A DNA stretch of 64,000 bases from Myxococcales bacterium 68-20 (lineage in GTDB: Bacteria > Myxococcota_A > Polyangia > Polyangiales > Polyangiaceae), in assembly GCA_001899635.1 (NCBI GenBank), contig MKVQ01000001.1, forward strand, positions 263,441 to 327,440, written 5' to 3'. Shown here in pieces: positions 4,019 through 59,489 of the stretch. Under the pieces are notes generated by a model, which did no database searches, was not told the origin of the DNA, and worked only from the letters and a program-made list of their open reading frames with translations. Position numbers and translations under genes: made by a program. Each line of letters starts with the position of its first letter. Within the stretch, counting starts at the first letter, position 1.

Positions 4019-4196
4019 GACACCGGCGCTAGCGTGGCGACTCTTCAGGAACAAGTGCCGACATCTCCTCGTTGAAGAGCATCGCACCAAGACCGATGGT
4101 AGACAAAGGTGCGTCCCCAGGTTCTTCGTAACGCTGGGGAAAGCTGTTGGAAGCCGCGGCCGCGCGGCCGAATCAAGCAAGCTCGGCCCATATGGC

Positions 4197-4235
4197 CGCC
4201 AACACCTGGCGCCAACATCTGACGCCAACGTCTGA
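4197..4235 (+). repeat. Three tandem 13-bp repeats upstream of dksA
   Basis: Units are CGCCAACACCTGG (4197-4209), CGCCAACATCTGA (4210-4222) and CGCCAACGTCTGA (4223-4235), head to tail with no spacer. They lie about 80 bp upstream of a candidate -35 element. Regular direct repeats like these often bind a regulator; the binding role is inference. Confidence 0.8.
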
Positions 4236-4312
4236 CGAGAGAGGTGCTTATCTCAGAGAGCAGCGCCGGCCGAGGCATCGAGGCCAGCCGGCGACGATTC
4301 ACGACACACGCG

Positions 4313-4339
4313 TTGACCTTATCGATCCCGATGTTTAAG
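4313..4339 (+). promoter_or_regulatory. Candidate dksA promoter
   Basis: TTGACC at 4313-4318 resembles a sigma-70 -35 box; GTTTAA/TTTAAG at 4333-4339 is a weak -10 after a 14-15 base gap, shorter than the ideal 17. It would give a leader of about 85 nt before the dksA ATG. Confidence 0.3.
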
Positions 4340-4432
4340 GTGTCGGGCCCTTTGGGGGGCGGTTACTCTCACGAGCTTCACACGGCTCAGCTCAGCGCGG
4401 GGGAATTGATCCCGCGCGCCGGAGGCAGGCGG

Positions 4433-4795
4433 ATGAACAAGGTCCAGCTCAAGAAGTTCAAGACGCTGCTCACGGAGAAGCGCGACGAGATCGTCAAGAA
4501 GGCCAAGCAGACGCTCGAGGAGGACATGACCCTCGACTCGAACGATCTGCCGGATGAGATGGACCTCGCCTCGAGCGAGTACCTCCAGTCGTTCACCTTC
4601 CGGCTCCGCGGTCGCGAGAAGGTCTTCCTCGACAAGATCGAGAAGGCCCTTCGCAAGATCGAGGACGGCAGCTTCGGCATCTGCGAAGAGTGCGGCGAAG
4701 AGATCTCCGTCAAGCGACTCGAGGCACGTCCCGAGACCAACCTCTGCATCCGTTGCAAGGAGGATCAGGAGCGTCACGAGAAGGACTACACCTGA
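4433..4795 (+). CDS. dksA: DksA/TraR family RNA polymerase-binding transcription factor
   Basis: A 120-residue protein. Residues 1-70 form the coiled coil that enters the RNA polymerase secondary channel; the tip carries DEMDLA with Asp41, Asp44 and Ala46, the DxxDxA signature essential for DksA action with ppGpp. A four-Cys zinc finger follows: CEECGEE and, after 17 residues, CIRCKED. DksA lowers rRNA transcription and tunes amino-acid promoters during the stringent response. The ATG at 4433 is preceded by GGAGGCAGG, a good ribosome-binding site; the longer in-frame start at 4244 has no support. A hairpin follows the stop at once. Confidence 0.93.
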   Translation: MNKVQLKKFKTLLTEKRDEIVKKAKQTLEEDMTLDSNDLPDEMDLASSEYLQSFTFRLRGREKVFLDKIEKALRKIEDGSFGICEECGEEISVKRLEARPETNLCIRCKEDQERHEKDYT

Positions 4796-4801
4796 GCAAG
4801 A

Positions 4802-4820
4802 GCTCCCGATGATCGGGAGC
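4802..4820 (+). terminator. Hairpin after dksA
   Basis: Perfect inverted repeat GCTCCCGATGATCGGGAGC, 7 bases after the dksA stop. It folds as an 8-bp stem with a 3-nt loop. There is no T-run, as is common in GC-rich genomes. Confidence 0.6.
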
Positions 4821-4853
4821 GCTCGGCTTCGGTCGTAGGCTAGACACGCAAGA

Positions 4854-4885
4854 GGGCGCCGCTGCCGATCGCGCAGCGGGCGCCC
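4854..4885. terminator. GC-rich hairpin between dksA and uvrA
   Basis: Arms GGGCGCCGCTGC (4854-4865) and GCAGC plus GGCGCCC (4873-4885) pair with one bulged G and a 7-nt loop, followed by TTCGTCT. It suits a terminator for either convergent gene. Confidence 0.6.
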
Positions 4886-4954
4886 TTCGTCTCATTTCGG
4901 ATCGCGATCGCGCAGCGTCGGGTCACGTCCGAGAAGAGAAGAGCAGAGCGAGAG

Positions 4955-5011
4955 AACAGGAAGGCGGGAAGGATCCTTTGATCGGTCCTTCCGTCCTTTT
5001 GCCTTCCTGTT
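4955..5011. terminator. Nested hairpin downstream of uvrA
   Basis: Outer arms AACAGGAAGGC (4955-4965) and GCCTTCCTGTT (5001-5011) match perfectly; an inner pair GGAAGGA (4967-4973) and TCCTTCC (4986-4992) nests inside. It lies about 80 bp past the uvrA stop, between convergent genes. Confidence 0.6.
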
Positions 5012-5031
5012 CGGTCGCGACGAGCGCTTCA

Positions 5032-5068
5032 GGCCCACCACTGCGCGTGGTCGGGGCGCGAGCCCCAA
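5032..5068 (+). repeat. Dispersed hairpin repeat, copy A
   Basis: Plus-strand copy of a family found six times in this window. It starts GGCCCACCACTGCG and ends CGGGGCGCGAGCCCCAA. It sits 20 bp beyond the uvrA stop. The third hairpin found in the longest copies is not recognisable here. Confidence 0.8.
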
Positions 5069-5088
5069 GCCCGCGACGGGCGCTCGCG

Positions 5089-8013
5089 TCAGGTCGCCTC
5101 GGCCGCGGCGCCCTTCTTCTTCGACGGCTTCGTGGCCGCGCGGGTGAGCACCTCGGCGAGGTAGCGCGCGGTGTGCGACTGTTTGCTCGTCACGACGGTT
5201 TCGGGAGTCCCCGACGCCACGATCGTCCCGCCCTTGTCGCCGCCCTCGGGCCCGAGATCGATCACCCAGTCGGCGCATGCGACGACATCGAGGTTGTGCT
5301 CGATGACGACGACCGTGTTGCCTTGATCGCGGAGCTCTAGGAGCGCTGCGAGGAGGACCTCGATGTCGGTGAAATGGAGGCCGGTCGTCGGCTCGTCGAG
5401 GACGTAGAGCGTCCGCCCCGTCGCTTTGCGCGCGAGCTCGCGTGCGAGCTTCACGCGCTGCGCCTCGCCGCCGGAGAGGGTGGTCGCCGGCTGGCCGAGG
5501 GTGAGGTACCCGAGGCCGACGCGACGGAGCGCATCGAGGCGATCGCGCACGCGCGGGATGGTCTCGAAGAGCGGGAGTGCCTGCTCGACCGTCACCTCGA
5601 GCGCGTCGGCGATCGAGAGACCGCGGTACTTCACCTCGAGCGTCTCGCGGTTGTAACGCTTGCCGCCGCAGGTGTCGCAGGTGACGAAGATGTCCGGGAG
5701 GAAGTGCATCTCGACGCGGAGCACCCCGTCGCCCTGACACGCCTCGCAGCGTCCGCCCTTCACGTTGAAGGAGAAGCGCCCGGCTTTGTAGCCGCGCGCG
5801 CGGGCCTCCGGGAGACCGGCATAGAGCTCGCGGAGGAGGGAGAAGACGCCCGTGTACGTCGCCGGGTTCGAGCGCGGCGTGCGACCGATCGGGGCCTGGT
5901 CGATCGAGATGACCTTGTCGACGTTCTCGAGGCCCTCGACGGCATCACACTCCCCGATCGGGGCCGTGGCCGAGTAGAGCTTCGCGCGCGCGGCCGGGAG
6001 CAGCGTGTCGACCACGAGGCTCGACTTGCCGCTGCCGGACACACCGGTGAAGCAGGTGAAGAGGCCGGTCGGCACCTCGACGGTGACGTCCTTCAGGTTG
6101 TGCGCTCGCGCGCCGACGATGCGCACCGCGCCCTTGCCGCGGCTCTTGCGCGTCCGCGGGATCGGGAGCTGCTTCTTGCCGCTGAGCCAGGGGCCGGTGA
6201 TCGACGCCGGGTCCTCCATCAGCTTCTTCGGCGGTCCTTGCGCGATGATCTGCCCGCCGTGGACGCCTGCGCCGGGGCCCATGTCGACGACGTAGTCGGC
6301 GGCGAGGATCGCTTCGCGATCGTGCTCGACGACGAAGACCGTGTTGCCGAGATCGCGGAGGCGAACCTGTGCCTGGAGGAGGCGCGCGTTGTCCCGCGCG
6401 TGCAGTCCGACCGATGGCTCGTCGAGCACGTAGAGGACGCCGACGAGCGCCGCGCCGATCTGCGTTGCGAGACGGATGCGCTGGCCCTCGCCGCTCGAGA
6501 GCGTCTGCGCGCTGCGATCGAGCGAGAGGTAGTCGAGGCCGACATCGATGAGGAAGCCGAGCCTGGCCGTGACCGCGCGGAGCAGCGGCTCGGCGACGGC
6601 GCTCTCGCGCGCGGAGAGCTGCTGCGGGCCGCCGTCCTTCCCGAGCGTCGAGAGGAATGCGCGAAGCTTCTCGAGAGGCATCCGGCCGAGCTCGGCGACG
6701 TCCTTTTCGCCGAGCTTCACCGCGAGCGCTTCGGGGCGGAGGCGGCGGCCCTTGCACGCGGAGCAGGTGCGCGTGACGAGGAAGCGGCCGATCTCGTCGT
6801 CGCCGATCGCGCCCTCGTCCTCGTCGAGGTCGTCGACGTCATCGCGCCCGGAAGGCGATCCGCCACCTTCCTCGAGCCGGGCCTCGAGGCGCTTCACGAT
6901 GCCGACGTAGTTCTTCTTCGCCGCGCCGCGCCCGCGCGCCTTGCCCTTCCCGTCGGCATCGCCGCCGCCGCCGAAGAGCAGCGCCTTCTTCGCGTCCTCC
7001 GGCTGCTTGTTCCACGACTTGTCGGGATCGACGCCGAGGGCCTCGACGGCTCGAGCGAGCTCGGTCGCGAGCGCGACGGAGCCGCGCCGGCCCCACGCGA
7101 GGATGACGCCCTCACGGAGCGTGCGCTGCGGATCGCCGATGGCGCGCTCGGGATCGACGACCGTGCGCGCTCCGAGCCCGTCGCACGAAGGACAGGCGCC
7201 GTGCGGACCGTTGAAGGAGAACATCCGCGGCTCGATCGGCGGCAGCGAGATCCCGCAGTCGACGCACGCGAAGCGCTCGGAGAGCCAGAAGGGCTCCTTG
7301 CCCTCGACTGCGATGAGGAGGCGGCCTTCGCCGGTCTTCAGCGCGAGCTCGACGCTGTCGGTGAGACGACCCTTCACGCCCTCCTTGAGGACGATGCGAT
7401 CGACGACCACATCGAGGTCGTGGGCCTTGCTTCGGTCGAGCTCGATCGGATCGCCGAGATCGACGACGGCGCCGTCGACGCGCGCGCGCACGAAGCCTTC
7501 GCGGCGGAGGCGCTCGAGCTCGAGCTTCAGCTCCCCCTTCCGCGCTCGCGCGATCGGCGCGAGGACGCTGAAGCGCGAGCCCTCCGGCAGAGCGAGGACG
7601 CGGTCGACGATCTGCTGGACCGTCTGGGCCTCGATCCGCTTCCCGCAGCTCGGGCAGTGCGGGATGCCGACGCGAGCGAAGAGCAGGCGCAGGTAGTCGG
7701 CGATCTCGGTGACCGTGCCGACGGTCGAGCGAGGCGACTTCGACAGTGGGCGCTGCTCGATCGCGATCGCGGGCGAGAGCCCTTCGATGCGGTCGACGTT
7801 GGGCTTCGCGAGCTGCTCGAGGAACTGGCGCGCGTAAGCGGAGAGGGACTCGACGTAGCGCCGCTGACCCTCGGCGTAGATTGTGTCGAACGCGAGCGAC
7901 GACTTCCCTGAGCCGCTCGGGCCTGTGAAGACGACGAGCTTCCCGCGCGGGAGCGAGACGCTCACGTCGCGGAGGTTGTGTTGCCGCGCTCCTGTGACCA
8001 CCAGGCGGTCCAT
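5089..8013 (-). CDS. uvrA: Excinuclease ABC subunit A
   Basis: A 974-residue protein starting [14 protein letters not shown]; an ATG seven codons upstream is less likely. UvrA is the damage-sensing ATPase of nucleotide excision repair and loads UvrB. Both ABC modules are present: Walker [10 protein letters not shown] (31-39) and GVSGSGKSS in the second half, signatures LSSGEGQRI and LSGGEAQRV, and Walker [10 protein letters not shown] and LDEPTTGLH. Zinc modules [25 protein letters not shown] and [16 protein letters not shown] are intact. An acidic, Gly/Ser-rich insertion of about 20 residues (around [13 protein letters not shown]) precedes the CSACKG module. It is a single gene with hairpins downstream. 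Confidence 0.97.
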
Positions 8014-24044: not shown

Positions 24045-27000
24045 ATGCTCAAGGTCGAGTGCGAGTCGTGCAAGGCGCCCTACCAGGTCGACGAACGGCG
24101 CGTACCGCCGACCGGGCTGAAGATGCGTTGCCCGAAGTGCGGGCACACGTTTCTCGTTACCGATCCGTCGAAGGGGGCCGTGCCTGCTGCAGACGGAGGT
24201 GCCGCTCCCAAGCCGCCGCCGCCGAAAAAGGCGACGATGGTCGGCCTCGCGCCGAAGCCTCCGACGAGCGCAAGCTCGAAGGCCGCTCCGCCGGCGCCCG
24301 CTCCGCCGATGCCGGCGCTCGATTTCGATGCCGCCCTTCCCGCCGTGAAGCCTGCGGCTTCGCGGCCGACACCGGGCTTCGCGATGAAGCCGACGGCGCC
24401 CGCGATGGCCGCGGTGCCCCCGCCGTTTCCGGGGCTCGACGATCTCGATCTGCCCGCGCTCGCAGGTGACGTCGGCCTGCCAGCCGCGGTCAATCGGCCG
24501 GCTGCGAAGGCGGCTCCGAGGGTCGCTCCGAAGGCCGCTCCGAAGCCGGCGCCCGCGCCGGCGCCCCCTCAGAGCCAGTTCAGCTTCGACGTCGACCTCC
24601 CCGCCATTCAGCCGCCGCCCGCAGCGCCGTCGGGCGGTGGGGGCTTCGGATCGATCGACCTTCCGGCGCCCAGGCACGCTGGCGCGCCTGACCTCCCCGC
24701 GCTGAAGGGAGACGACGGGTTCGGGGGCTTCGGCGATCTGCCTGCGCCGAAGGGCGGCGGGTTCGGCGATCTACCTGCGCCGAAGGGCGGCGGGTTCGGT
24801 GATCTGCCTGCGCCGAAGGGCGGCGGGTTCGGCGATCTGCCTGCGCCGAAGGGCGGCGGGTTCGGCGATCTGCCTGCGCCGAAGGGCGGCGGTGGCTTCG
24901 GCGAGATCGATCTGCCGTCGTTGCAGAACGACCTCCCGCTTCACAGCGGAGGCGCTGCGCACCTTCCGTCGCCGATGATGGGTGCGGGCGCGCATCTTCC
25001 GTCGCCGATGGGTGCGGGCGCACACCTTCCGTCGCCGATGGGTGCGGGCGCGCACCTTCCGTCGCCGATGGGTGCGGGCGCGCACCTTCCGTCGCCGATG
25101 GGTGCGGGCGCGCACCTTCCGTCGGCGATGAGCCCGAACGCGCACCTTCCGTCGTCGATGGGACCGGGCGCGCATCTTCCGTCGGCGATGAGCCCGAACG
25201 CGCACCTTCCGTCGTCGATGGGACCGGGCGCGCATCTTCCGTCGGCGATGAGCCCGAACGCGCACATGCCGCTGCCGGTCTCCGACGATCGCCTGCTCCC
25301 GAACAAGCCAGGGCCGGCGCCGATCGCATTCGGCGAGCTCGATTTGCCGCTCGTTGGTGGCAGTGGCGATCCGCTCGGAGCACCTCCGCCTTCCGCGGGG
25401 GGCCTCGGCGGTGGCTTCGGTGAGGTCGATCTTCCTTCCGATCCCGGGCCGCCGGGAGCACTGCCGATCGCGAGCGCGCCGCCGAGCGCGGGCGGCATGG
25501 CGTTCGGAGAGGTCGATCTCGGTGGCGGCGGCTCCGACAGCGTCGCGCCTCTCGGTCCTCCGCCGGCGACGAGCGCCGGTACGTTCGCCTTCCAGGAAGC
25601 CTCGCTCGAGTCGGCGAGCTCCGGCGCCAGCCCCGGCCCCGCCATCGGCCTACCGGGAAGGCTCCACCACGCGCCGGTCGATCGCCCGTCGAAGCTGCCG
25701 AAGATCATCGGCGCCGCCCTCGTCTTCGTGGTGGTCGGCGGCGCGGCCCTCCAGCTCACACCGCTCGGTGCATTCGGCTACGTGTGGATTGGCGACAAGC
25801 TTCACTCCGGCGAGAACATCACCGACGCGACGGCGAAGGCGGACTTCGCGCGCGCGAAGCTCGCGGGCGATACGTTCCCCGCCGCTCAGCTGGCTGCGGA
25901 TGATCTTCTCGAGGCCCGAAAACGTGCCCCGCGCTCGCGCCCGCTCGGCGCCTACGCGGCGTTCGTCGAGTACATGAACCAGGTCCGCTTCGGCGTCGAT
26001 CCCGCGCGCGCAGCGCGAGTGAGCACGTTCCTCGCCGACATCCCGCCGGACCAGGTGGTCCCGTATCTCGCAGCGGCGCAGGCCGCGCAAGCGGCGCAGG
26101 CAGGGGACTGGGCAAAGGCGAAGAGCGCGGTCGCCACCGCCGTCGCCCAGGAGCCGAAGGACGGCATCCAGCACGAGCTGTCGATCCTCAAGGGCGAGAT
26201 CGCGCTCGCCGAGAAGGACCACGCAGCGGCGCTCGCCGCCTTCAACGCCGCGCATGCGAGCGGCGGTTCGGCGCGCACGTTCTTCGGCATCGCGCGCGCG
26301 CACTTCCTGGCGAAGGCGTTCCCGAAGGCGCGCGAGGCGGTGGACAACGTGCTCAAGGCTTCGCCCACCCACGCGAGCGCATTGACGCTCCGTGCGCAGC
26401 TGATCTGGGAGATGCAGCGCGACGACGTCCTGGCGATGAAGGACCTCGACGCCGTCCTCGACGAGAAGAATCGGAAGACCCTCGGCGCCGCGGAGCTCTC
26501 GTATGCGCTCTCGGCGAAGGGCTGGATCATGTTCGCGCGTGACCGTGCGAGCGAGGCGCGCGCCGCGTTCGACGAGGCCGTGAAGGTCGACCAGCGTAAC
26601 GTGAGCGCGCTGGTCGGGCAGGGCGAGGTGCTCTACTCCGACAGCCGGCATACCGAGGCGCTCACGCGCTTCGACGAGGCCGTGACCAAGGATCCGTCCA
26701 GCCTGCCGGCGGTGATCGGCTCTGCGAAGACGAAGATCGCGCTCGAGCGGCTCGCGGACGCGAAGGCGCAGCTCACGGTGGCGCGGCAGAAGGCGCCGAA
26801 GGACATGAGCGTCGCCCTCTGGCTGGCGCGCACCGAGGAGGCGCTCGGCAACAAGAAGGTGGCCGAGGACCTCTTCTCGACCGCGGTCGACCTCGTCGAT
26901 CCGCAGAACCCGGACGCGATCCACGCGTACGCGGCATTCGCGAAGTTCCTCGCGTCGCAAGGCAAGACCGCCGACGCGGCCGCAAAGCTCGAGGAGGCGC

Positions 27001-28139
27001 GTGCGAAGCTCCCCGACTCTCCCGCGCTCCAGCGCGCTCTCGGCGAGGTCGCGGCCGAACAGGGCCGGTTCCAGGAGGCGCTCGAGCACTTCCAGGTGGC
27101 GCTCGAGAAGAACCCGAGCGACCTCGGCACCCGCTTCCTGCTCGGCAGGACCTACCGGCGAATGCACAAGCTCGACCTCGCGGCCAAGGCGCTCGACGAG
27201 GTCGCTGCGATCGACAAGGAGTACCCCAGCATCGCGCTGGAGCGTGGTCTCCTCTTCGAGGAGTCGGGGGACGTCCAGAAGGCGCTCGAGCAGTTCGAGA
27301 GCGCTTCGCAGAAGGCCCCGAACGACGTGGACCTGAAGCTCCGCGTCGGTGCCGCGTACGTCGCGATCGGCGAGGTCGAGAAGGCCCTCCCGATGTTGAT
27401 CCAGGTGAAGGATCTGCGCCCGAACAGCGCCGAGGCGAACCACTTCGTGGGGCGCGCCTACCTGAGGCAGGGCGGGCTCGAGGCGGCGGCGGCGATGCGC
27501 TACCTCCAGCGCGCCGTCGCGCTCGACCCCAACAAGGCCGAGTATCACCTTTACGTGGCGTGGGCTGCGAACGAGGCGACCCCGGCGCAGCTGGGGCTCG
27601 CGCGGACGCACGTCGACAAGGCCCTGCAGCTCGACAAGCTCCTCGCGGATGGGTACTGGCAGCGAGGTGTCCTCCTTCGCAAGGAGGGGCAGGTCAACGA
27701 CGCGATCAAGGACTTGAAGCGCGCGCTCGAGCTGAAGCCCTCGCGTCACGAGGCCCACGCGGCGCTCGCCGAAGCGTACGAGGACAAGAACGAGGTCGCC
27801 GCGGCGACCAGCGAGTGGCAGCGCGCCATCGCCGGCGACGACAAGCCGCCGTACTGGCGCTGGAAGTACGGCAAGATCCTCGCGGAGCGAAGCTCGAACG
27901 CCGAGGCGGCCAAGCACCTCGTCTATGCGGTCGCGAACGGCAGGACGGCGCAGCCGCGCCCAGGGTGGCTCGGTCCGGCGGCGTTCGAGGCGGGTGAGGC
28001 GCTTCAGAAGACCGGCCAGAAGAAGGAAGCGTGCGAGCACTTCCAGCTCTTCATGGAGCTCGCTCCCACGACCTCTCCGGATCGCCGTGACGCCATCAAG
28101 GCGCAGAGCGACCTCGGCTGCCCGTGGGAGGGCCGCTGA
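24045..28139 (+). CDS. Giant zinc-ribbon, repeat and TPR membrane protein
   Basis: A 1364-residue protein. It starts with an MJ0042-type zinc ribbon (CESCKAPYQVDERRVP ... CPKCGHTF, residues 7-36). A Pro/Ala-rich region follows, with five perfect FGDLPAPKGGG repeats (about 229-283) and eleven 10-11-residue AHLPSPMGAG-type repeats (about 305-415). One membrane helix (IIGAALVFVVVGGAAL, about 549-565) separates this cytoplasmic part from about 780 residues of TPR-like repeats that end the protein. The topology recalls Myxococcus motility proteins that join a zinc finger and disordered repeats to an envelope domain, but similarity in function is only a guess. It stands alone between divergent and convergent genes. 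Confidence 0.82.
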   Translation: MLKVECESCKAPYQVDERRVPPTGLKMRCPKCGHTFLVTDPSKGAVPAADGGAAPKPPPPKKATMVGLAPKPPTSASSKAAPPAPAPPMPALDFDAALPAVKPAASRPTPGFAMKPTAPAMAAVPPPFPGLDDLDLPALAGDVGLPAAVNRPAAKAAPRVAPKAAPKPAPAPAPPQSQFSFDVDLPAIQPPPAAPSGGGGFGSIDLPAPRHAGAPDLPALKGDDGFGGFGDLPAPKGGGFGDLPAPKGGGFGDLPAPKGGGFGDLPAPKGGGFGDLPAPKGGGGFGEIDLPSLQNDLPLHSGGAAHLPSPMMGAGAHLPSPMGAGAHLPSPMGAGAHLPSPMGAGAHLPSPMGAGAHLPSAMSPNAHLPSSMGPGAHLPSAMSPNAHLPSSMGPGAHLPSAMSPNAHMPLPVSDDRLLPNKPGPAPIAFGELDLPLVGGSGDPLGAPPPSAGGLGGGFGEVDLPSDPGPPGALPIASAPPSAGGMAFGEVDLGGGGSDSVAPLGPPPATSAGTFAFQEASLESASSGASPGPAIGLPGRLHHAPVDRPSKLPKIIGAALVFVVVGGAALQLTPLGAFGYVWIGDKLHSGENITDATAKADFARAKLAGDTFPAAQLAADDLLEARKRAPRSRPLGAYAAFVEYMNQVRFGVDPARAARVSTFLADIPPDQVVPYLAAAQAAQAAQAGDWAKAKSAVATAVAQEPKDGIQHELSILKGEIALAEKDHAAALAAFNAAHASGGSARTFFGIARAHFLAKAFPKAREAVDNVLKASPTHASALTLRAQLIWEMQRDDVLAMKDLDAVLDEKNRKTLGAAELSYALSAKGWIMFARDRASEARAAFDEAVKVDQRNVSALVGQGEVLYSDSRHTEALTRFDEAVTKDPSSLPAVIGSAKTKIALERLADAKAQLTVARQKAPKDMSVALWLARTEEALGNKKVAEDLFSTAVDLVDPQNPDAIHAYAAFAKFLASQGKTADAAAKLEEARAKLPDSPALQRALGEVAAEQGRFQEALEHFQVALEKNPSDLGTRFLLGRTYRRMHKLDLAAKALDEVAAIDKEYPSIALERGLLFEESGDVQKALEQFESASQKAPNDVDLKLRVGAAYVAIGEVEKALPMLIQVKDLRPNSAEANHFVGRAYLRQGGLEAAAAMRYLQRAVALDPNKAEYHLYVAWAANEATPAQLGLARTHVDKALQLDKLLADGYWQRGVLLRKEGQVNDAIKDLKRALELKPSRHEAHAALAEAYEDKNEVAAATSEWQRAIAGDDKPPYWRWKYGKILAERSSNAEAAKHLVYAVANGRTAQPRPGWLGPAAFEAGEALQKTGQKKEACEHFQLFMELAPTTSPDRRDAIKAQSDLGCPWEGR
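24729..24893 (+). repeat. Five tandem 33-bp coding repeats
   Basis: Five consecutive 33-bp units, each encoding FGDLPAPKGGG, at 24729, 24762, 24795, 24828 and 24861. They differ only at a few synonymous positions, so they are young or homogenised. They lie inside the zinc-ribbon/TPR gene. Confidence 0.92.
24957..25289 (+). repeat. Eleven tandem 30-bp coding repeats
   Basis: A first 33-bp unit (extra Met codon) is followed by ten 30-bp units, starting every 30 bases from 24990. The first five encode AHLPSPMGAG; the following units alternate AHLPSAMSPN and AHLPSSMGPG, a 60-bp higher-order repeat; the last is degenerate. Confidence 0.9.
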
Positions 28140-43627: not shown

Positions 43628-43636
43628 GTGGAAGCG

Positions 43637-45136
43637 TCAGCGACCCGGCGTGTGCGGATCGAGGAACGTCGCGCCCTCGGGGCTGATCATCGCCTCGTCG
43701 TCGGGAAGGCCCACGTCGGTCTGTCCGAAGTGGCGCACGTCGCGGAGGCCGAGCACCTCTTCGGCGATGTCCTGATAGATCCGGCGCTTCGCCTCCGAGT
43801 CGAGCCACACCGTGACCTTGCGGATGCGAGTGCCGCCGAGCATCGCGTGCCATCGGAGCGTCGTCATCATCGCATTGGCGCACATCTCGACGCCGACTCG
43901 CGCTGCGCCGGTGCCGAGAGCGGGAGCGGCGATCGACGTGCAGCCGCGCTCCTCGGCGAGGATGAGCGCGCGCGCGAACGCGCGACCGACGCACGACACC
44001 TCGTTCCATGCGCTGACCGCGTGGAAGACGTGCTTCGTCTCGAGCGCGCCGGGGTCGGTGCGGATGCAGGTCCCGAGCGGCTGCTCGCCGCCCGCCATGG
44101 CGTCGCGTTCGATCTCGTCACCGCCGCGGAGGCGAAGCGCCTCGCCGACGCCGCTGCGCATGCGGAGCTCGAAGTTCGCGCTCGAGACGATCGCGTCGGC
44201 GGATGCCCTCGCGATGTCGCCGGTGGCGAAGGTCACTTCGAGCTGGCCGAAATGCAAGGTGCAGGAGCCGACACGGTTCACGGCGGGCTCGGGCGGCTCG
44301 AGCGCCTTCGTCAACGTCGCGAAGTGCGAGAGCGGGGCGAGGACGTCGGCCGGGCGATCGCGCACGTCCTTCGCGAGCATCCGCCGGACCACGTCCTGGA
44401 AGTACGCCTCGGCCGGCGACGTCGGCGGTGGCATGCGAGGCGCGGTATTCGGGTCGAGGATCTCCCCGACGCTCTTGAACGGATTGCTTCCGTACCGGAG
44501 ATCGCACGCGGTCGCGCCTGCTCCCCAGACGTCGGTGAAGCGACCGAGCTCACCGTGCCGGAGCTGCTCCGGCGCCATGAAGGGCAGCGTGCCGGCGGTC
44601 TCGGTCGGCGCACCGTCGCTGCGCGCCACGGCGATCCCGAAGTCACCGAGGCGGATGCCCGACTGGGCTTCCCCGAACACGTTCGACGGCTTGAGATCGC
44701 GATGGATGACCCCGGCTTGATGGGCCGCGCGCAGACCTTTGCAGATCTCGCGCATCACGTGGCAGACGAGCCAGAGGGGGAGGCCGACGCCGAGCGCGGC
44801 GCGCCGGCGTCGATCCAGCTCGGCGAAGTCGAGGCCGTCGACGTACTCCTGAACGAGGAACGGCGTCGGGGCGGCCCCTTCGCCGTCATCGCCGGGGATC
44901 TGGCCGGCGCCGAGCGCGCGTACGATACGCGGGCTCGACACACGCGCCATCAGCCGCGCCTCCTGGAGGATCCGCGCGGCTGCGCCCTGCGTGTCGCTCG
45001 CGCGGAGCGTGCGGCGCAGGGTCTTGATCACGACCGGCGTCGCGAGCACCTCGTGCTTCGCGAGCCAGACCTCGCTCATTCCTCCTTCGCCAAGGAGGCC
45101 CCAGACGTCATATCCGGGGACGCTCAGCTCCCGCAT
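43637..45136 (-). CDS. Ser/Thr protein kinase fused to a macro domain
   Basis: A 499-residue protein. The kinase spans about 9-275: glycine loop LGEGGMSEV (15-23), Lys38 in VVIK, HRDLKPSN (145-152), DFG 165-167 and APE 188-190, so all catalytic residues are present. After a short linker a macro domain spans about 298-445: VTFATGDIARASADAIVSSAN (Asn at 321, the ADP-ribose-contacting position), GVGEAL (329-334), VFHAVSAW and APALGTGAARVGVE. Macro domains bind or remove ADP-ribose. No membrane segment or long Pro-rich linker, unlike most bacterial kinases of this group. It is not in an operon with the gcv genes by spacing (41 bp to gcvH), though co-transcription in the opposite order is possible. 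Confidence 0.9.
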   Translation of the reverse strand: MRELSVPGYDVWGLLGEGGMSEVWLAKHEVLATPVVIKTLRRTLRASDTQGAAARILQEARLMARVSSPRIVRALGAGQIPGDDGEGAAPTPFLVQEYVDGLDFAELDRRRRAALGVGLPLWLVCHVMREICKGLRAAHQAGVIHRDLKPSNVFGEAQSGIRLGDFGIAVARSDGAPTETAGTLPFMAPEQLRHGELGRFTDVWGAGATACDLRYGSNPFKSVGEILDPNTAPRMPPPTSPAEAYFQDVVRRMLAKDVRDRPADVLAPLSHFATLTKALEPPEPAVNRVGSCTLHFGQLEVTFATGDIARASADAIVSSANFELRMRSGVGEALRLRGGDEIERDAMAGGEQPLGTCIRTDPGALETKHVFHAVSAWNEVSCVGRAFARALILAEERGCTSIAAPALGTGAARVGVEMCANAMMTTLRWHAMLGGTRIRKVTVWLDSEAKRRIYQDIAEEVLGLRDVRHFGQTDVGLPDDEAMISPEGATFLDPHTPGR

Positions 45137-45177
45137 CGTCTACTGCCCCCCCGCGATGCTGCCCCGAGGCGTCCGCG

Positions 45178-45564
45178 TCAGGACGCCTTGACGTGATCGC
45201 CGTAGCTCTTCTCGTCCATCAGCTGGGCGATCCCGGCGCTGTCGGAGGTCTCGATGACCACCATCCAGCCCTTGCCGTACGGATCCTCGTTGACGAGCTC
45301 CGGCTTGGCGTCGAGGTCCTGGTTCACCGCGACGACCTTGCCGTTGAGGGGGGCGTACAGATCGCTCAGCGTCTTGACGCTCTCGATCGTCCCGAAGGTC
45401 TTGCCCGACGTGAGCTCGTCACCGACCTTCACATCGAGGCTCACGAGCGTGATGTCACCGAGCTGCTCGACCGCAAACGCGGTGATGCCGACGGTGATTC
45501 GGTTGCCCTCGACCTTCGTCCACTCGTGGTCCTTCGTGTACTTGAGCTCCGCGGGGAATTCCAT
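45178..45564 (-). CDS. gcvH: Glycine cleavage system H protein
   Basis: A 128-residue lipoyl carrier. The lipoylated Lys64 sits in GTIESVKTLSDLYAP, the usual hairpin. GcvH shuttles the aminomethyl group between the P and T proteins. It follows gcvT on the same strand after 114 bp. The length is normal. Confidence 0.95.
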   Translation of the reverse strand: MEFPAELKYTKDHEWTKVEGNRITVGITAFAVEQLGDITLVSLDVKVGDELTSGKTFGTIESVKTLSDLYAPLNGKVVAVNQDLDAKPELVNEDPYGKGWMVVIETSDSAGIAQLMDEKSYGDHVKAS

Positions 45565-45678: not shown

Positions 45679-46791
<1,113 letters not shown>

Positions 46792-47088
46792 ATCGCGGGG
46801 CACACTAGACGAGCCGCCGCAGGTCCGAAAGTGGAGTGATTCGGTGTCGTGCGTCACGCCGTTGCGCGGCGACCAAGTGCACGCGCGTCAAGGGCCGCGC
46901 GAAGCGAAGGAGACGTCGTCGAGCGGCTCGATCGCGAGCCCGAAGGCGGCGAGCACGGGGACGTCGAGCTCGAGCGTACAGTCGAAGCGATGCATGCGGC
47001 GTGGGCTTTCACGAGACCGGCGCCCGCGGTGCGCCAATCCACCCTCGCCAGTGCCGGCGCGCTCCATTCGGGTTATGCTCGGCAGGTC
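46792..47088. other. Divergent intergenic region, gcvT / methyltransferase
   Basis: About 297 bp without a supported gene. Promoters for both directions must lie here. A short leftward open frame near 46888-46992 reads as a possible protein end (MHRFDCTLELDV...), but I do not trust it. I looked for a glycine riboswitch in the gcvT leader and saw none. Confidence 0.4.
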
Positions 47089-51939: not shown

Positions 51940-53049
<1,110 letters not shown>

Positions 53050-53194
53050 GGGACGCCCAGCATCGCAAGGCGCGCCCGCATCGACAAGGGCGGATGCCCC
53101 GGCCGAGCCCGAGCCGACGCCCTGTGCTCGATGCTCATCCGACGCGACGCCGTGCCTCGCCCCGCTGGCCGCTGTCGTGCATGGCTCGAGCTAT

Positions 53195-53617
53195 GTGAGC
53201 AGCGAGAACTTCCACGAGCGGTTCGAAGACCTGACCCCGTACGCCCGCGAGATGCATCGCGCCATCGTGTCACTCATGGAGGAGCTCGAGGCGATCGACT
53301 GGTACCAGCAGCGTGTCGACGGCACGAAGGACGAGGCCCTCAAGGCTGTGCTCGCACACAACCGCGACGAGGAGATCGAGCACGCGATGATGAACCTCGA
53401 GTGGATCCGGCGGAACAACCCCACGTTCGACGAGGCGGCGCGGACGTTTCTCTTCACCGAGGGCCCGATCACCGAGGTCGAGGAGAAGACGAAGGGCGAC
53501 GCAGGGGGCGGCCGGGCGGGGCGGGACGGCGAGGGTGAGCCGACGGCGAGCGGAGGCCCCGCGGAGCCGTCCGGCGTCGAGGGCTCGCTCGGCATCGGAA
53601 GTCTCAAGCTCATGTGA
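53195..53617 (+). CDS. Encapsulated ferritin-like cargo protein (EncFtn)
   Basis: A 140-residue protein from GTG 53195 (VSSENFHERFEDL); earlier in-frame codons are not protein-like. Helix 1 has HRAIVSLMEELEAIDWYQQRV and helix 2 HNRDEEIEHAMMNLEWIRR. Glu30, Glu60 and His63 align with the ferroxidase residues of the Rhodospirillum rubrum protein as I recall it. It ends in a Gly/Glu-rich linker and SLGIGSLKLM, the cargo-loading peptide that docks inside the shell. EncFtn oxidises Fe(II) for storage inside the encapsulin. Its stop overlaps the shell start. Confidence 0.9.
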   Translation: MSSENFHERFEDLTPYAREMHRAIVSLMEELEAIDWYQQRVDGTKDEALKAVLAHNRDEEIEHAMMNLEWIRRNNPTFDEAARTFLFTEGPITEVEEKTKGDAGGGRAGRDGEGEPTASGGPAEPSGVEGSLGIGSLKLM

Positions 53618-54468
53618 ACCCAACCGACGACGCAACTGCAAACGAGGGCATGACCGTGGACCTGCTCAAGCGCAACCTCGCACCCATCCTTCCCGAAGCT
53701 TGGACGCTCATCGATGCCGAGGCGGCGCGTGTCCTCCGCCTCCTCCTCGCCGGGCGCAAGATCGTCGACTTCGAGGGGCCGTTCGGCTGGAAGTTCGCCG
53801 CGGTCAACACGGGTAGGCTGAAGCTCTTCTCGCAAGGGCCGGCCCCCGATGTCGGGATGGGGATTCGCGAGGTGCAGCCGCTCGTCGAGGTGAGAGTCCC
53901 GATCAAGCTCTCGACCATGGATCTCGACACAGTGGCGCGCGGCGCCGAGGGGCCCAACCTCGAATCGGTGGTCCAGGCTGCCGAGAAGGTCGCCCTCGTC
54001 GAGGACAACGCCGTCTTCAACGGGCTCGTCGCGGCGGGGATCCAGGGCATCCTCGAGTCGACCCCGCACCCGTCGTTGCCGCTTCCCGCCGACGTGCTCG
54101 AGCTACCGAGGGTGCTCATCGACGCGAAGGAGACGCTCCGTCGCGCGGGCGTCGCCGGCCCGTACGTCCTCGTCCTCGGCGCCGAGCTCCATGATCAGGT
54201 CTACTCCGCGACCGAGGAAGGGCATCCGCTCGCCAAGCGCATCGAGCAGCAGCTCGTCGACCGCCCGATCGTCCGCGCCGAGGCCGTACGCGGCGCCGCG
54301 CTCCTCTCGCTCCGTGGAGGCGACTACGAGCTCTACGTCGGTCAGGACCTCTCGATCGGCTACGCGTACCACACGAAGGACGAGGTCGAGCTCTACCTCA
54401 CCGAGTCCTTCACGTTTCGCGTGATCGAGCCGGCCGCGGCGGTTCGGCTCACGACCAACGCGAAGTGA
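53614..54468 (+). CDS. Encapsulin shell protein (family 1, HK97-like)
   Basis: A 284-residue protein if GTG 53614 is used (GTGA overlap with EncFtn); ATG 53650 would give 272 residues and starts MTVDLLKRNLAPI, nearer the usual MDLLKRELAPI. RVLRLLLAGRKIVDFEGPFGW, IREVQPLVEVRVPI, VQAAEKVALVEDNAVFNG, GAALLSLRGGDYELYVGQDLSIGY and FRVIEPAAAVRL are standard for the family. Sixty or more copies form a virus-capsid-like cage holding the EncFtn cargo. Not a phage remnant: no other phage gene is near. Confidence 0.93.
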   Translation: MNPTDDATANEGMTVDLLKRNLAPILPEAWTLIDAEAARVLRLLLAGRKIVDFEGPFGWKFAAVNTGRLKLFSQGPAPDVGMGIREVQPLVEVRVPIKLSTMDLDTVARGAEGPNLESVVQAAEKVALVEDNAVFNGLVAAGIQGILESTPHPSLPLPADVLELPRVLIDAKETLRRAGVAGPYVLVLGAELHDQVYSATEEGHPLAKRIEQQLVDRPIVRAEAVRGAALLSLRGGDYELYVGQDLSIGYAYHTKDEVELYLTESFTFRVIEPAAAVRLTTNAK

Positions 54469-57665: not shown

Positions 57666-59489
57666 CTACTCGCTCGCCGGAGGCTCGGGGGCCGGCGCGG
57701 GGCTCGGCGCCGGCGACTCGTCCTCCGGCGTCGGGACATCGGGCTTCACGACGGGCGCCTTCGGACGGAGCTTGCGTCGCGCCGAAGGCGCTGCGCTCGG
57801 CGAAGGCAGGTCGTTCGGGCTCAACGTCACCGGGGCGGCAACGGTGCCCTCCGTGGCCGTCGTCGCTGCGCTCGCTTCCGTCGTCGCTGCGCTCGCTTCC
57901 GTCGTCGCTGCGCTCGCTTCCGCCGCCTGCGTCGTCGTCGCTGCGCTCGTCTCCGCCGCCTGCGTCGGCGTCGCTGCGCTCGTCTCCGCCGGCGGCGGCT
58001 CCGCGATCGCGTGGGTCGCGTTCGATGGCGCGGGCGCGTTCGGTTGCGTGCGCTGGCCGGCGAGGAATGCGCCGATCGCGATGCCGACGACCGCGAGGAC
58101 GATCGACGCGAGTGTCATGCGTCGACGTCGCTCGGCCCGGAGCGCGATCCGCTCGTCGCGCTCCGTGTTCGGCGCGGGCTCGATGGCCGGGAGCGGCGCG
58201 ATCTCCGGTGGAGTTCCGGGCAACGCGACGCCGCCGGATGACGAAGAGGGGTAAGGGTTCGGCGGTCCCGGCGAGGATGCGGAGTGCCCTGTCGGAGGCA
58301 GCGGCAGGGTCTTCGGACCGGAGCCGCCGGTGATCTCGGAGTCGCTGCGCGACCTGCTCGCTGCGATGGCGAACGCGGCTTCCACGCCGGTGCGCATGGC
58401 GTCGTCCGAGTCGCGGATCGTCTCCGCGTGGTCCGACTCGCTCTGCCGCGAGTCGCTCAGGTGGCTCTCGCGACGCTCTCCTTGCCCGCTCGGTTTGCTC
58501 CCGCGAGCTGCAGCAAACGCCGCTGCCGTGAAGACCTCGGTGTCCCCCGTCGTGTCGACCGCCGCGGCCGCTTGCGCGACGATGACGGCGGTGTGCTTAC
58601 CGGTGCCGTCGGGGAGCACCGTGGGGAACGCGTCGAGCAGGCGCTGGGTCACGGTCTCCGCGTCCGGGATCCGCGCATCGCGATCGTGGACGAGCATCGC
58701 ATCGACGACACGTGCGAGCTCCGCGGGGACCCATGGCGCCGCGTCGTGGAGCGGCTTCGGTCGGGACGTCAGGATGCCGACGATGGTGCCGTGATAGCTA
58801 CCGCGATCGGCGAACGGCGCCGTGCCGGCGAGGGTCTCGTACAAGACGGCGCCGAGGGACCAGACGTCCGCGCGGCCGTCGACGTCGTCCTTGCCCTCGG
58901 CCTGCTCGGGCGACATGTAGAGCGGCGTTCCGATCGGCGTACCGCTGCCCGTGATGCGAGCGTTGCCGGGGGCTTCGGCGAGCAGCTTCGACACGCCGAA
59001 ATCGAGCAGCTTCACGAGCAGCTGCCCACTATCGCGCTTCGTGAGGTAGACGTTCGCCGGCTTGAGATCGCGGTGGATGACGCCGGCCTCGTGGGCCTTC
59101 ACCAGCCCGCGCGCGATCTGGTGCGCGATCATGACGCCGGTCTTCACGTCGAGTCGATTCTCGCGCTCGAGGCGTGCCTGGAGGTCCTCGCCGGCGAGGT
59201 GCTCCATGACCATGTAGAGGCCGACGCGGCCGTCCGCGCCCACGTCGAAGACGTCGACGATGTGCTCGGAGTTGATCTGTCCGGCGGCGCGCGCCTCGCG
59301 GCGGAAGCGAGCGACGATGAGCTCGCTCTCCTTCATCGACTTGTCGATCAGCTTGATCGCGACGCGCTTGCCGAGGTCGAGGTGAATGGCCTCGCACACG
59401 ACGCCCATGCCGCCTGCGCCGAGCACACGACGGATCTCGTATTTTCCGCCGACCGCCAGGCCGACCAACGAGCTGTACGTCGCCGCCAC
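57666..59489 (-). CDS. Membrane-anchored Ser/Thr protein kinase
   Basis: A 607-residue protein. Kinase domain about 15-280: LGAGGMGVV glycine loop, Lys in VAIKLID, VIHRDLKPANV, LLDFGVSKL and YMSPEQ, all intact. A Ser/Pro-rich juxtamembrane region follows, then a membrane helix (MTLASIVLAVVGIAIGAFLAG, about 462-482) and an outside tail made of EASAATT repeats and a Pro/Lys end. This is the standard layout of myxobacterial PknB-type kinases; the short repetitive tail is unlikely to be a folded sensor. Confidence 0.93.
   Translation of the reverse strand: MAATYSSLVGLAVGGKYEIRRVLGAGGMGVVCEAIHLDLGKRVAIKLIDKSMKESELIVARFRREARAAGQINSEHIVDVFDVGADGRVGLYMVMEHLAGEDLQARLERENRLDVKTGVMIAHQIARGLVKAHEAGVIHRDLKPANVYLTKRDSGQLLVKLLDFGVSKLLAEAPGNARITGSGTPIGTPLYMSPEQAEGKDDVDGRADVWSLGAVLYETLAGTAPFADRGSYHGTIVGILTSRPKPLHDAAPWVPAELARVVDAMLVHDRDARIPDAETVTQRLLDAFPTVLPDGTGKHTAVIVAQAAAAVDTTGDTEVFTAAAFAAARGSKPSGQGERRESHLSDSRQSESDHAETIRDSDDAMRTGVEAAFAIAASRSRSDSEITGGSGPKTLPLPPTGHSASSPGPPNPYPSSSSGGVALPGTPPEIAPLPAIEPAPNTERDERIALRAERRRRMTLASIVLAVVGIAIGAFLAGQRTQPNAPAPSNATHAIAEPPPAETSAATPTQAAETSAATTTQAAEASAATTEASAATTEASAATTATEGTVAAPVTLSPNDLPSPSAAPSARRKLRPKAPVVKPDVPTPEDESPAPSPAPAPEPPASE
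57859..57987 (-). repeat. Tandem coding repeats in the kinase tail
   Basis: Three 21-bp units (57859, 57880, 57901), each encoding seven residues of EASAATT type, then two 33-bp units (57922, 57955) encoding 11 residues. The first three are identical, so replication slippage is recent. Confidence 0.85.

Follow-up and report, generated by a model that had tools for sequence, protein, structure and literature searches.

A minus-strand gene in the window, by which we mean the whole stretch of 64,000 nucleotides of Myxococcales bacterium 68-20 analysed here, places a Ser/Thr protein kinase and a macro domain in one polypeptide, which we call KinMac (Table 1). The locus raises two questions: is this a genuine and conserved protein architecture, and what would an ADP-ribose-binding module do for a kinase? 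To our knowledge, the sensor domains described for bacterial Ser/Thr kinases are mostly extracellular or of the protein-interaction type, and a small-molecule input is known for few of these enzymes. With an ADP-ribose module built into a kinase, KinMac would be a compact protein for asking whether phosphorylation in bacteria is coupled to ADP-ribosylation or to NAD state. Our analysis indicates that the kinase-macro architecture is genuine, old, conserved and patchily distributed, with the macro domain most likely an ADP-ribose-type reader that serves as an input or targeting module.

The sequence-only reading did not recognise the fusion as a characterised bacterial architecture, and the searchable literature agrees: full-text searches for a macro domain together with a kinase, in bacteria at large or in myxobacteria, gave no paper whose title or opening lines of abstract describe it, with the reservation that subscription papers, supplements and domain databases may differ. 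The main text of two surveys of prokaryotic kinase architectures contains no macro domain ("A1pp" does not occur and, in the passages available, "macro" occurs only inside other words; PMC2877116, PMC1262709), and the accessible text of PMC4245714 holds no description of a kinase-macro architecture. Nearest in print, in the portions available of PMC7159879 and PMC8195603, are macro domains and Ser/Thr kinases listed as alternative domains of bacterial conflict systems.

Table 1. Features of the kinase-macro locus, in positions of the window.
Feature	Position	Strand	Basis or remark
Kinase-macro fusion gene (KinMac), 499 aa	43637..45136	-	Intact ORF; Pfam Pkinase and Macro
Hanks-type Ser/Thr kinase domain, residues 9-268	44333..45112	-	Pfam 11-263; PknB fold match
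Macro domain, residues 289-463	43748..44272	-	Pfam 317-422; family profile 289-463; model pLDDT 93.6
C-terminal tail, residues 466-499	43640..43741	-	Mean pLDDT 62, 35, 52 and 52 in the last four 10-residue blocks
Thr490 codon in conserved tail motif GATFLD	43667..43669	-	Candidate phosphorylation/FHA docking site
gcvH, glycine cleavage H protein	45178..45564	-	Pfam GCV_H 7.1e-40; 41 bases upstream of KinMac
gcvT, aminomethyltransferase	45679..46857	-	Pfam GCV_T 5.7e-94; upstream of KinMac

An intact gene with two domains

The KinMac ORF begins with an ATG at 45136 and runs through 499 codons with no internal stop. Both of the domains that had been proposed from motifs score above their curated Pfam cut-offs within it, Pkinase at residues 11-263 (E 1.1e-36, 127.1 bits, cut-off 31.7) and Macro at residues 317-422 (E 1.6e-12, 47.8 bits, cut-off 22). 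The residues named in the sequence-only reading lie where it placed them, namely K38, HRD 145-147, DFG 165-167 and APE 188-190 of an intact kinase, together with DAIVSSAN from residue 314 and GVGEAL from residue 329 in the macro part. Its description of a soluble protein also holds: no membrane anchor is indicated in KinMac because the maximum 19-residue Kyte-Doolittle mean is 1.39, and the corresponding peak exceeds 1.8 in two of the 64 fused proteins described below. A model of the two domains together, built from a 17-row alignment, has a pTM of 0.83 and a mean pLDDT of 83.2, with values under 50 at residues 167-178 (after the DFG), 467-481 and 497-499. An overlapping ORF on the plus strand (43628-45196) lies opposite KinMac; it is most likely a shadow frame, since the minus-strand ORF has the gene-like pattern of G+C by codon position.

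We collected 64 distinct fused kinase-macro proteins, KinMac included, all from the window's phylum or from named myxobacteria; checking the ORFs with one profile for the kinase and another for the macro domain gave a first set of 59 and then five more. Pfam independently finds both Pkinase and Macro in 66 of 66 proteins, these being the 64 and two divergent relatives (macro at E 0.001). Some loci were left out of the 64: L124, in which the two halves lie in different frames; L125 and L158, with a macro domain only, in an ORF that begins at the first base of the respective sequence; L073, a 173-aa ORF with a macro domain only; and five divergent fusions, L131-L135, which were counted apart. 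A frameshift or other artefact uniting two genes, named beforehand as what would overturn the proposal, is excluded by the recurrence of the same two-domain ORF in 64 distinct sequences. The fusion is beyond chance because these homologues share one domain order, both domains have dN/dS values of 0.11-0.23 in three pairs of sequences and both folds are predicted.

In L124 itself, the kinase ORF (about 4028-6034) and the macro ORF (5764-6525) lie in different frames; the assembly is fragmented, and the copy has either decayed or been misassembled.

The kinase domain

KinMac has all the marks of a Hanks-type Ser/Thr kinase, with the VAIK lysine (K38), the alphaC glutamate (E59) and the HRD, DFG and APE motifs. 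Catalytic residues are nearly invariant in the set of 59 fused proteins, with K38 present in 58, E59 in 56, H145 in 59, R146 in 56 and both D147 and D165 in 59. The kinase is probably catalytically competent. PknB of Mycobacterium tuberculosis is the closest known counterpart, being the top match in the fold search with the kinase (5u94, Z 29.3, rmsd 2.4, 254 residues aligned) and the top sequence match among solved structures, and it shares the catalytic residues; here and below, fold-search matches less than one Z unit apart are treated as tied. PknB sits in the membrane as a receptor and carries PASTA repeats. KinMac differs from it in having no membrane segment, and it falls outside the PASTA/PknB receptor family, scoring 142.3 bits where the family model NF033483 has its cut-off at 450 and showing no PASTA domain in its Pfam scan.

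The macro domain

Since fold searches with the full-length model returned lists filled with kinases, we modelled the macro domain by itself from an alignment of 57 rows (57 of the 59 fused proteins in the set at that stage) and used this model for a separate search. The resulting model has a pLDDT of 93.6 and a pTM of 0.90, and the 50 fold matches listed for it consist of macro-domain proteins, carrier fusions containing one and designed hydrolases. They include PARP14 macro domains 1 and 2 (4d86, Z 26.9, rmsd 1.4, 173 aligned), macroH2A1.1 (1zr3, Z 26.6), PARP14 macrodomain 3 with ADP-ribose (4abk, Z 25.5, rmsd 1.6, 169 aligned), OiMacroD with ADP-ribose (5l9k, Z 25.2), TTHA0132 (2dx6, Z 24.7, 29 % identity), PARP14 macrodomain 2 (3q71, Z 23.2) and MacroD2 (Z 22.5). 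Because the best matches of the model are macro domains, some of them bound to ADP-ribose, the C-terminal half is a macro domain by predicted structure as well as by Pfam.

Judged from sequence, its putative ligand pocket has a conserved framework across the fused family: D307, which we take to be the adenine-binding aspartate of macro domains, is kept in 62 of the 64 proteins, G329 in 63, and G410 and H372 in all. The pocket nevertheless varies, since N321, present in 53, is replaced by Y, H, V, R or T in the remaining 11. Every one of the 64 fused proteins has the arginines R385 and R389, as against 5 and 7, respectively, of 27 macro ORFs collected without a kinase, a constraint special to the fusion. 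Among solved bacterial macro domains, stand-alone proteins of the TTHA0132 type are among the nearest in sequence (2dx6, E 2.1e-12) and show similar GV-x-x-AI and GTG loops in the alignment; they differ in being single-domain proteins, and the macro tree places the kinase-less ORFs that resemble TTHA0132 outside the clade of fused proteins.

Proposed reading or removal of ADP-ribose

The explanation that we favour, with rather better than even confidence, is that KinMac is a cytosolic and competent Ser/Thr kinase whose macro domain would be a non-hydrolytic reader of a ligand containing ADP-ribose and would control the kinase. The sequence-only reading had left recognition and removal of ADP-ribose side by side. 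In the accessible text of PMC10470015, MacroD-related hydrolases are defined by the motifs N(6x)GG[VLI] and G[VIA][YF]G, and the inactive PARP14 macrodomains 2 and 3 have neither. When each macro sequence was tested without alignment, neither motif was found in any of the 64 fused proteins; of the 27 kinase-less macro ORFs, eight carry the first and four carry both. The catalytic-aromatic position, A412 in KinMac, is F or Y in none of the fused proteins and in 10 of the 27 kinase-less ones, and at the positions of the MacroD aspartate (331) and of what is presumably the MacroD histidine (335) none of the 64 fused proteins has D or H, respectively, as against 5 of 27 in each case. With the MacroD motifs absent from all 64 proteins, recognition is likelier than hydrolysis, and the removal half of the earlier suggestion finds no support in these sequences. 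Binding without cleavage has a precedent, since PARP14 macrodomain 1 without the aromatic residue is described as having substantially lower hydrolysis while still being stabilised by free ADP-ribose (PMC10470015, accessible text). The reader assignment is likely and not proven, because, in the available portion of PMC7050489, some MacroD homologues are active without the aspartate and SCO6735 is an ALC1-like hydrolase that lacks the TARG1 dyad.

Known ADP-ribose readers offer a partial parallel. PARP14 macrodomains 2 and 3 and macroH2A1.1 share the macro fold with KinMac, and the former two likewise lack both hydrolase motifs (PMC10470015, accessible text); all are eukaryotic, none is attached to a kinase, and their identity to the KinMac macro domain is 18-23 %.

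An enzyme that strips ADP-ribose from proteins or cleaves O-acetyl-ADP-ribose, with the kinase regulating or following that step, is in our judgement an unlikely description of the fusion. The modelled fold lies about as close to active hydrolases as to readers (the 4d86, OiMacroD and MacroD2 matches given above), N321 is retained in most of the family and atypical hydrolases exist, according to the same portion of PMC7050489; the uniform loss of both motifs and of the aspartate and histidine weighs against it, and another macro ORF of the same genome, L037, has both motifs and could do the erasing.

It is somewhat less likely again that the macro domain binds no ligand and is a purely structural, dimerisation or substrate-docking module. 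Such a role would fit the divergent L131-L135 proteins, which keep the domain without D307 and N321, and R385 and R389, whose invariance is special to the fusion, could lie at an interface, but the near-complete retention of D307, G329 and G410 in the main family speaks for a binding pocket.

Distribution and descent of the fusion

A search of 58 genomes, KinMac's own included, with the whole protein gave kinase-level matches in all 58 and a match spanning the macro domain in 17, at 86 to 41 % identity apart from its own. The fusion is present in 8 of 12 genomes of the window's genus, some of which are incomplete. The sequence-only reading had proposed a count of genomes with the same fusion: among 317 genomes of the class, a profile of the macro part gives 56 matches of at least 154 bits in 54 genomes (the next scores 114.5), so that 54 of the 317 carry the fusion. 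Across 377 genomes sampled from the phylum, the same profile adds six matches outside the class, the next scoring 131.7 bits. A peptide-pattern scan of genome contigs found 34 loci, of which 33 are fused and one (L073) has no kinase. Fusions beyond the phylum were sought with two family-specific peptide patterns only, and other kinase-macro fusions may therefore occur elsewhere. Carriers include Labilithrix MAGs, Minicystis rosea, Sorangium cellulosum So ce26, Archangium violaceum and A. lansinium. The presence of the gene is patchy and, as only 54 of 317 class genomes have it, it is dispensable in many lineages.

Kinase and macro trees built separately recover the same two groups of fused proteins, with 15 and 49 members, and because this membership agrees, the two domains have been passed on together. 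The kinase tree unites the fused kinases in a single clade (support 100/99) whose sole extra member is the kinase half of L124, and L131-L135 stand next to it (96/81) in a tree whose outgroup is 15 other kinases only. In the macro tree L131-L135 sit on a long branch that joins another long branch, so its placement is uncertain, and the fused group there needs two changes. Most simply, the domains fused once, long ago, and have stayed together since, a single origin that the macro tree would permit without demonstrating. For three pairs of sequences, dN/dS is 0.11-0.21 in the kinase and 0.20-0.23 in the macro domain, and looser, 0.19-0.81, in the tail.

The L131-L135 loci (about 4954-6492 in each) represent a second, strongly diverged kinase-macro subfamily within one genus. 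All five have N at position 307 and D at 321, and ADP-ribose binding may have been lost in them; the subfamily is likely a paralogue with a changed pocket.

Proposed coupling of the two domains and the tail

If the macro domain is a reader, as we favour, its ligand could be ADP-ribose in free form, O-acetyl-ADP-ribose as made by sirtuins or a protein that bears ADP-ribose, and ligand binding would set when, or on what, the kinase acts. The model would favour tight coupling, that is, a ligand-gated kinase, over a loose tether, because the linker is short and confidently modelled (pLDDT 88 in the block 281-290).

Beyond the macro domain, 50 of the 64 fused proteins have a tail that extends at least 20 residues past the macro match. 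A threonine preceded by two small or acidic residues and followed by any residue and a hydrophobic one occurs in 39 of these 50 tails (mean 6.8 and maximum 17 in 500 within-tail shuffles), and TxxD occurs in 26 (11.9 on average and at most 24 after shuffling); we chose the pattern after viewing the tails, and the shuffle statistics ignore relatedness. TxxD resembles the phosphothreonine motifs read by FHA domains. Thr490 of KinMac may be a phosphorylation or docking site, and in the proposed mechanism the conserved threonine of the disordered tail would probably be phosphorylated and used for docking. What we infer here is which ligand binds, how it affects the kinase, what the tail does and which cellular targets are involved.

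Whether a suitable ligand could exist in this cell can be judged from the genome. It contains three macro-domain loci, two matches to the SIR2 family (L182 has the HG motif and the other is ambiguous by motif pattern) and two matches to ADP_ribosyl_GH. ADP-ribose metabolites are plausible because of these SIR2-family and ADP_ribosyl_GH proteins. Weighing the other way, no DarT was found in the genome and no ADP-ribosyltransferase was identified in it; a PARP profile search, with no match there or in any control genome, is uninformative.

As a broader and more tentative proposal, which we regard as possible without thinking it probable, proteins of this family across the phylum would be ligand-gated Ser/Thr kinases in which the macro domain senses ADP-ribose or O-acetyl-ADP-ribose and the phosphorylated tail threonine recruits FHA proteins. 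If this were true, NAD turnover or protein ADP-ribosylation would be a direct input to phospho-signalling. That many myxobacteria share the architecture suggests that NAD or ADP-ribosylation state may act directly on their phosphorylation signalling, a link that the sequence-only reading had thought possible. Genetics are conceivable because cultivated strains (Sorangium cellulosum So ce26, Minicystis rosea and Archangium violaceum) carry the family.

Genomic neighbourhood

In the window, gcvT, gcvH and KinMac follow one another in this order on one strand, and gcvP of the same genome is on another contig. The arrangement invites the idea that KinMac is a glycine-cleavage regulator, a member of a gcvT-gcvH operon that would read an ADP-ribosyl mark or the lipoyl state on GcvH and phosphorylate the complex. 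The analogy is with the operon of SirTM, a macro domain and GcvH-L, in which, in the accessible text of PMC4518038, the macro domain acts on ADP-ribosylated GcvH-L. The short distance to gcvH, with gcvT above it, would be consistent with such a role, as would the presence of gcvT, gcvH or gcvP within 8 kb of the fused gene at 18 of the 64 loci, 16 of them with at least one such gene upstream on the same strand, in several arrangements. The other 46 have no gcv gene in the available flank (some flanks are short), and among the 48 loci with at least 3 kb upstream, 13 have one. In the kinase tree all 18 gcv loci belong to a single 25-member branch (support 89/79), in which seven have no gcv gene, some on short contigs; outside this branch, none of the available flanks has one.

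The same loci also keep a methyltransferase gene (13 of 64), mutS (12) and metK (9) within 8 kb, all among the 18, and for this reason plain synteny explains the proximity to gcv genes. The likeness to the SirTM/Zn-macro/GcvH-L operon is limited to a macro domain adjoining a glycine-cleavage H gene. No SirTM gene is adjacent to KinMac, the two SIR2 matches of the genome being on other contigs (C3, C23), the neighbours are gcvT and gcvH, the association occurs in one branch only, and the macro domain of the SirTM operon has an extended Zn-binding loop (PMC7050489, available portion). We judge the gcv link to be mainly synteny with a small chance of meaning, and a regulator of glycine cleavage to be improbable.

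Arrangements at related loci differ in detail. A PDZ-domain gene (L022:1819-2640, minus strand) lies between gcvH and the KinMac homologue on the same strand in one relative, and a gene of the same cluster (L024:9532-10329, minus strand) has this position, again on the same strand, in a second. At L050, another kinase gene precedes the KinMac homologue.

Phage defence, in which the macro domain would sense an NAD-derived alarm molecule, as in Thoeris effectors containing a macro domain, and the kinase would be the output, is very unlikely: macro domains do occur in Thoeris systems (PMC11204291, accessible text) and 34 PADLOC models, which have no cut-off, match KinMac, including mad6 (6.4e-48), PD-T4-6 (in the kinase region) and PDLC04041 (aligned over residues 9-447), but 24 of the 25 models among the matches listed are confined to residues 5-287, the kinase, the C-terminal 217 residues alone match none, NCBIfam MAD6 (NF047741) gives 106 bits against a cut-off of 460, which places KinMac outside MADS MAD6, TIR_2 is absent from the genome (positive controls matched in 4), and in most genus relatives carrying it the gene lies among mutS, gcvTH and metK, not in a defence island. 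Taken together, the PADLOC, DarT and TIR_2 results offer a defence role no backing other than generic matches to kinases.

Elsewhere in the window, a second Ser/Thr kinase gene on the minus strand (57666-59489) encodes 607 aa without a macro domain, and a plus-strand gene (24045-28139) encodes a protein of 1364 aa that has a zinc ribbon at its N-terminus and also contains TPR repeats. At 53048-54468 on the plus strand, an EncFtn-like gene (Pfam 1.9e-38) overlaps the start of an encapsulin gene (Linocin_M18, 8.7e-82), and the two look like an iron-storing encapsulin pair.
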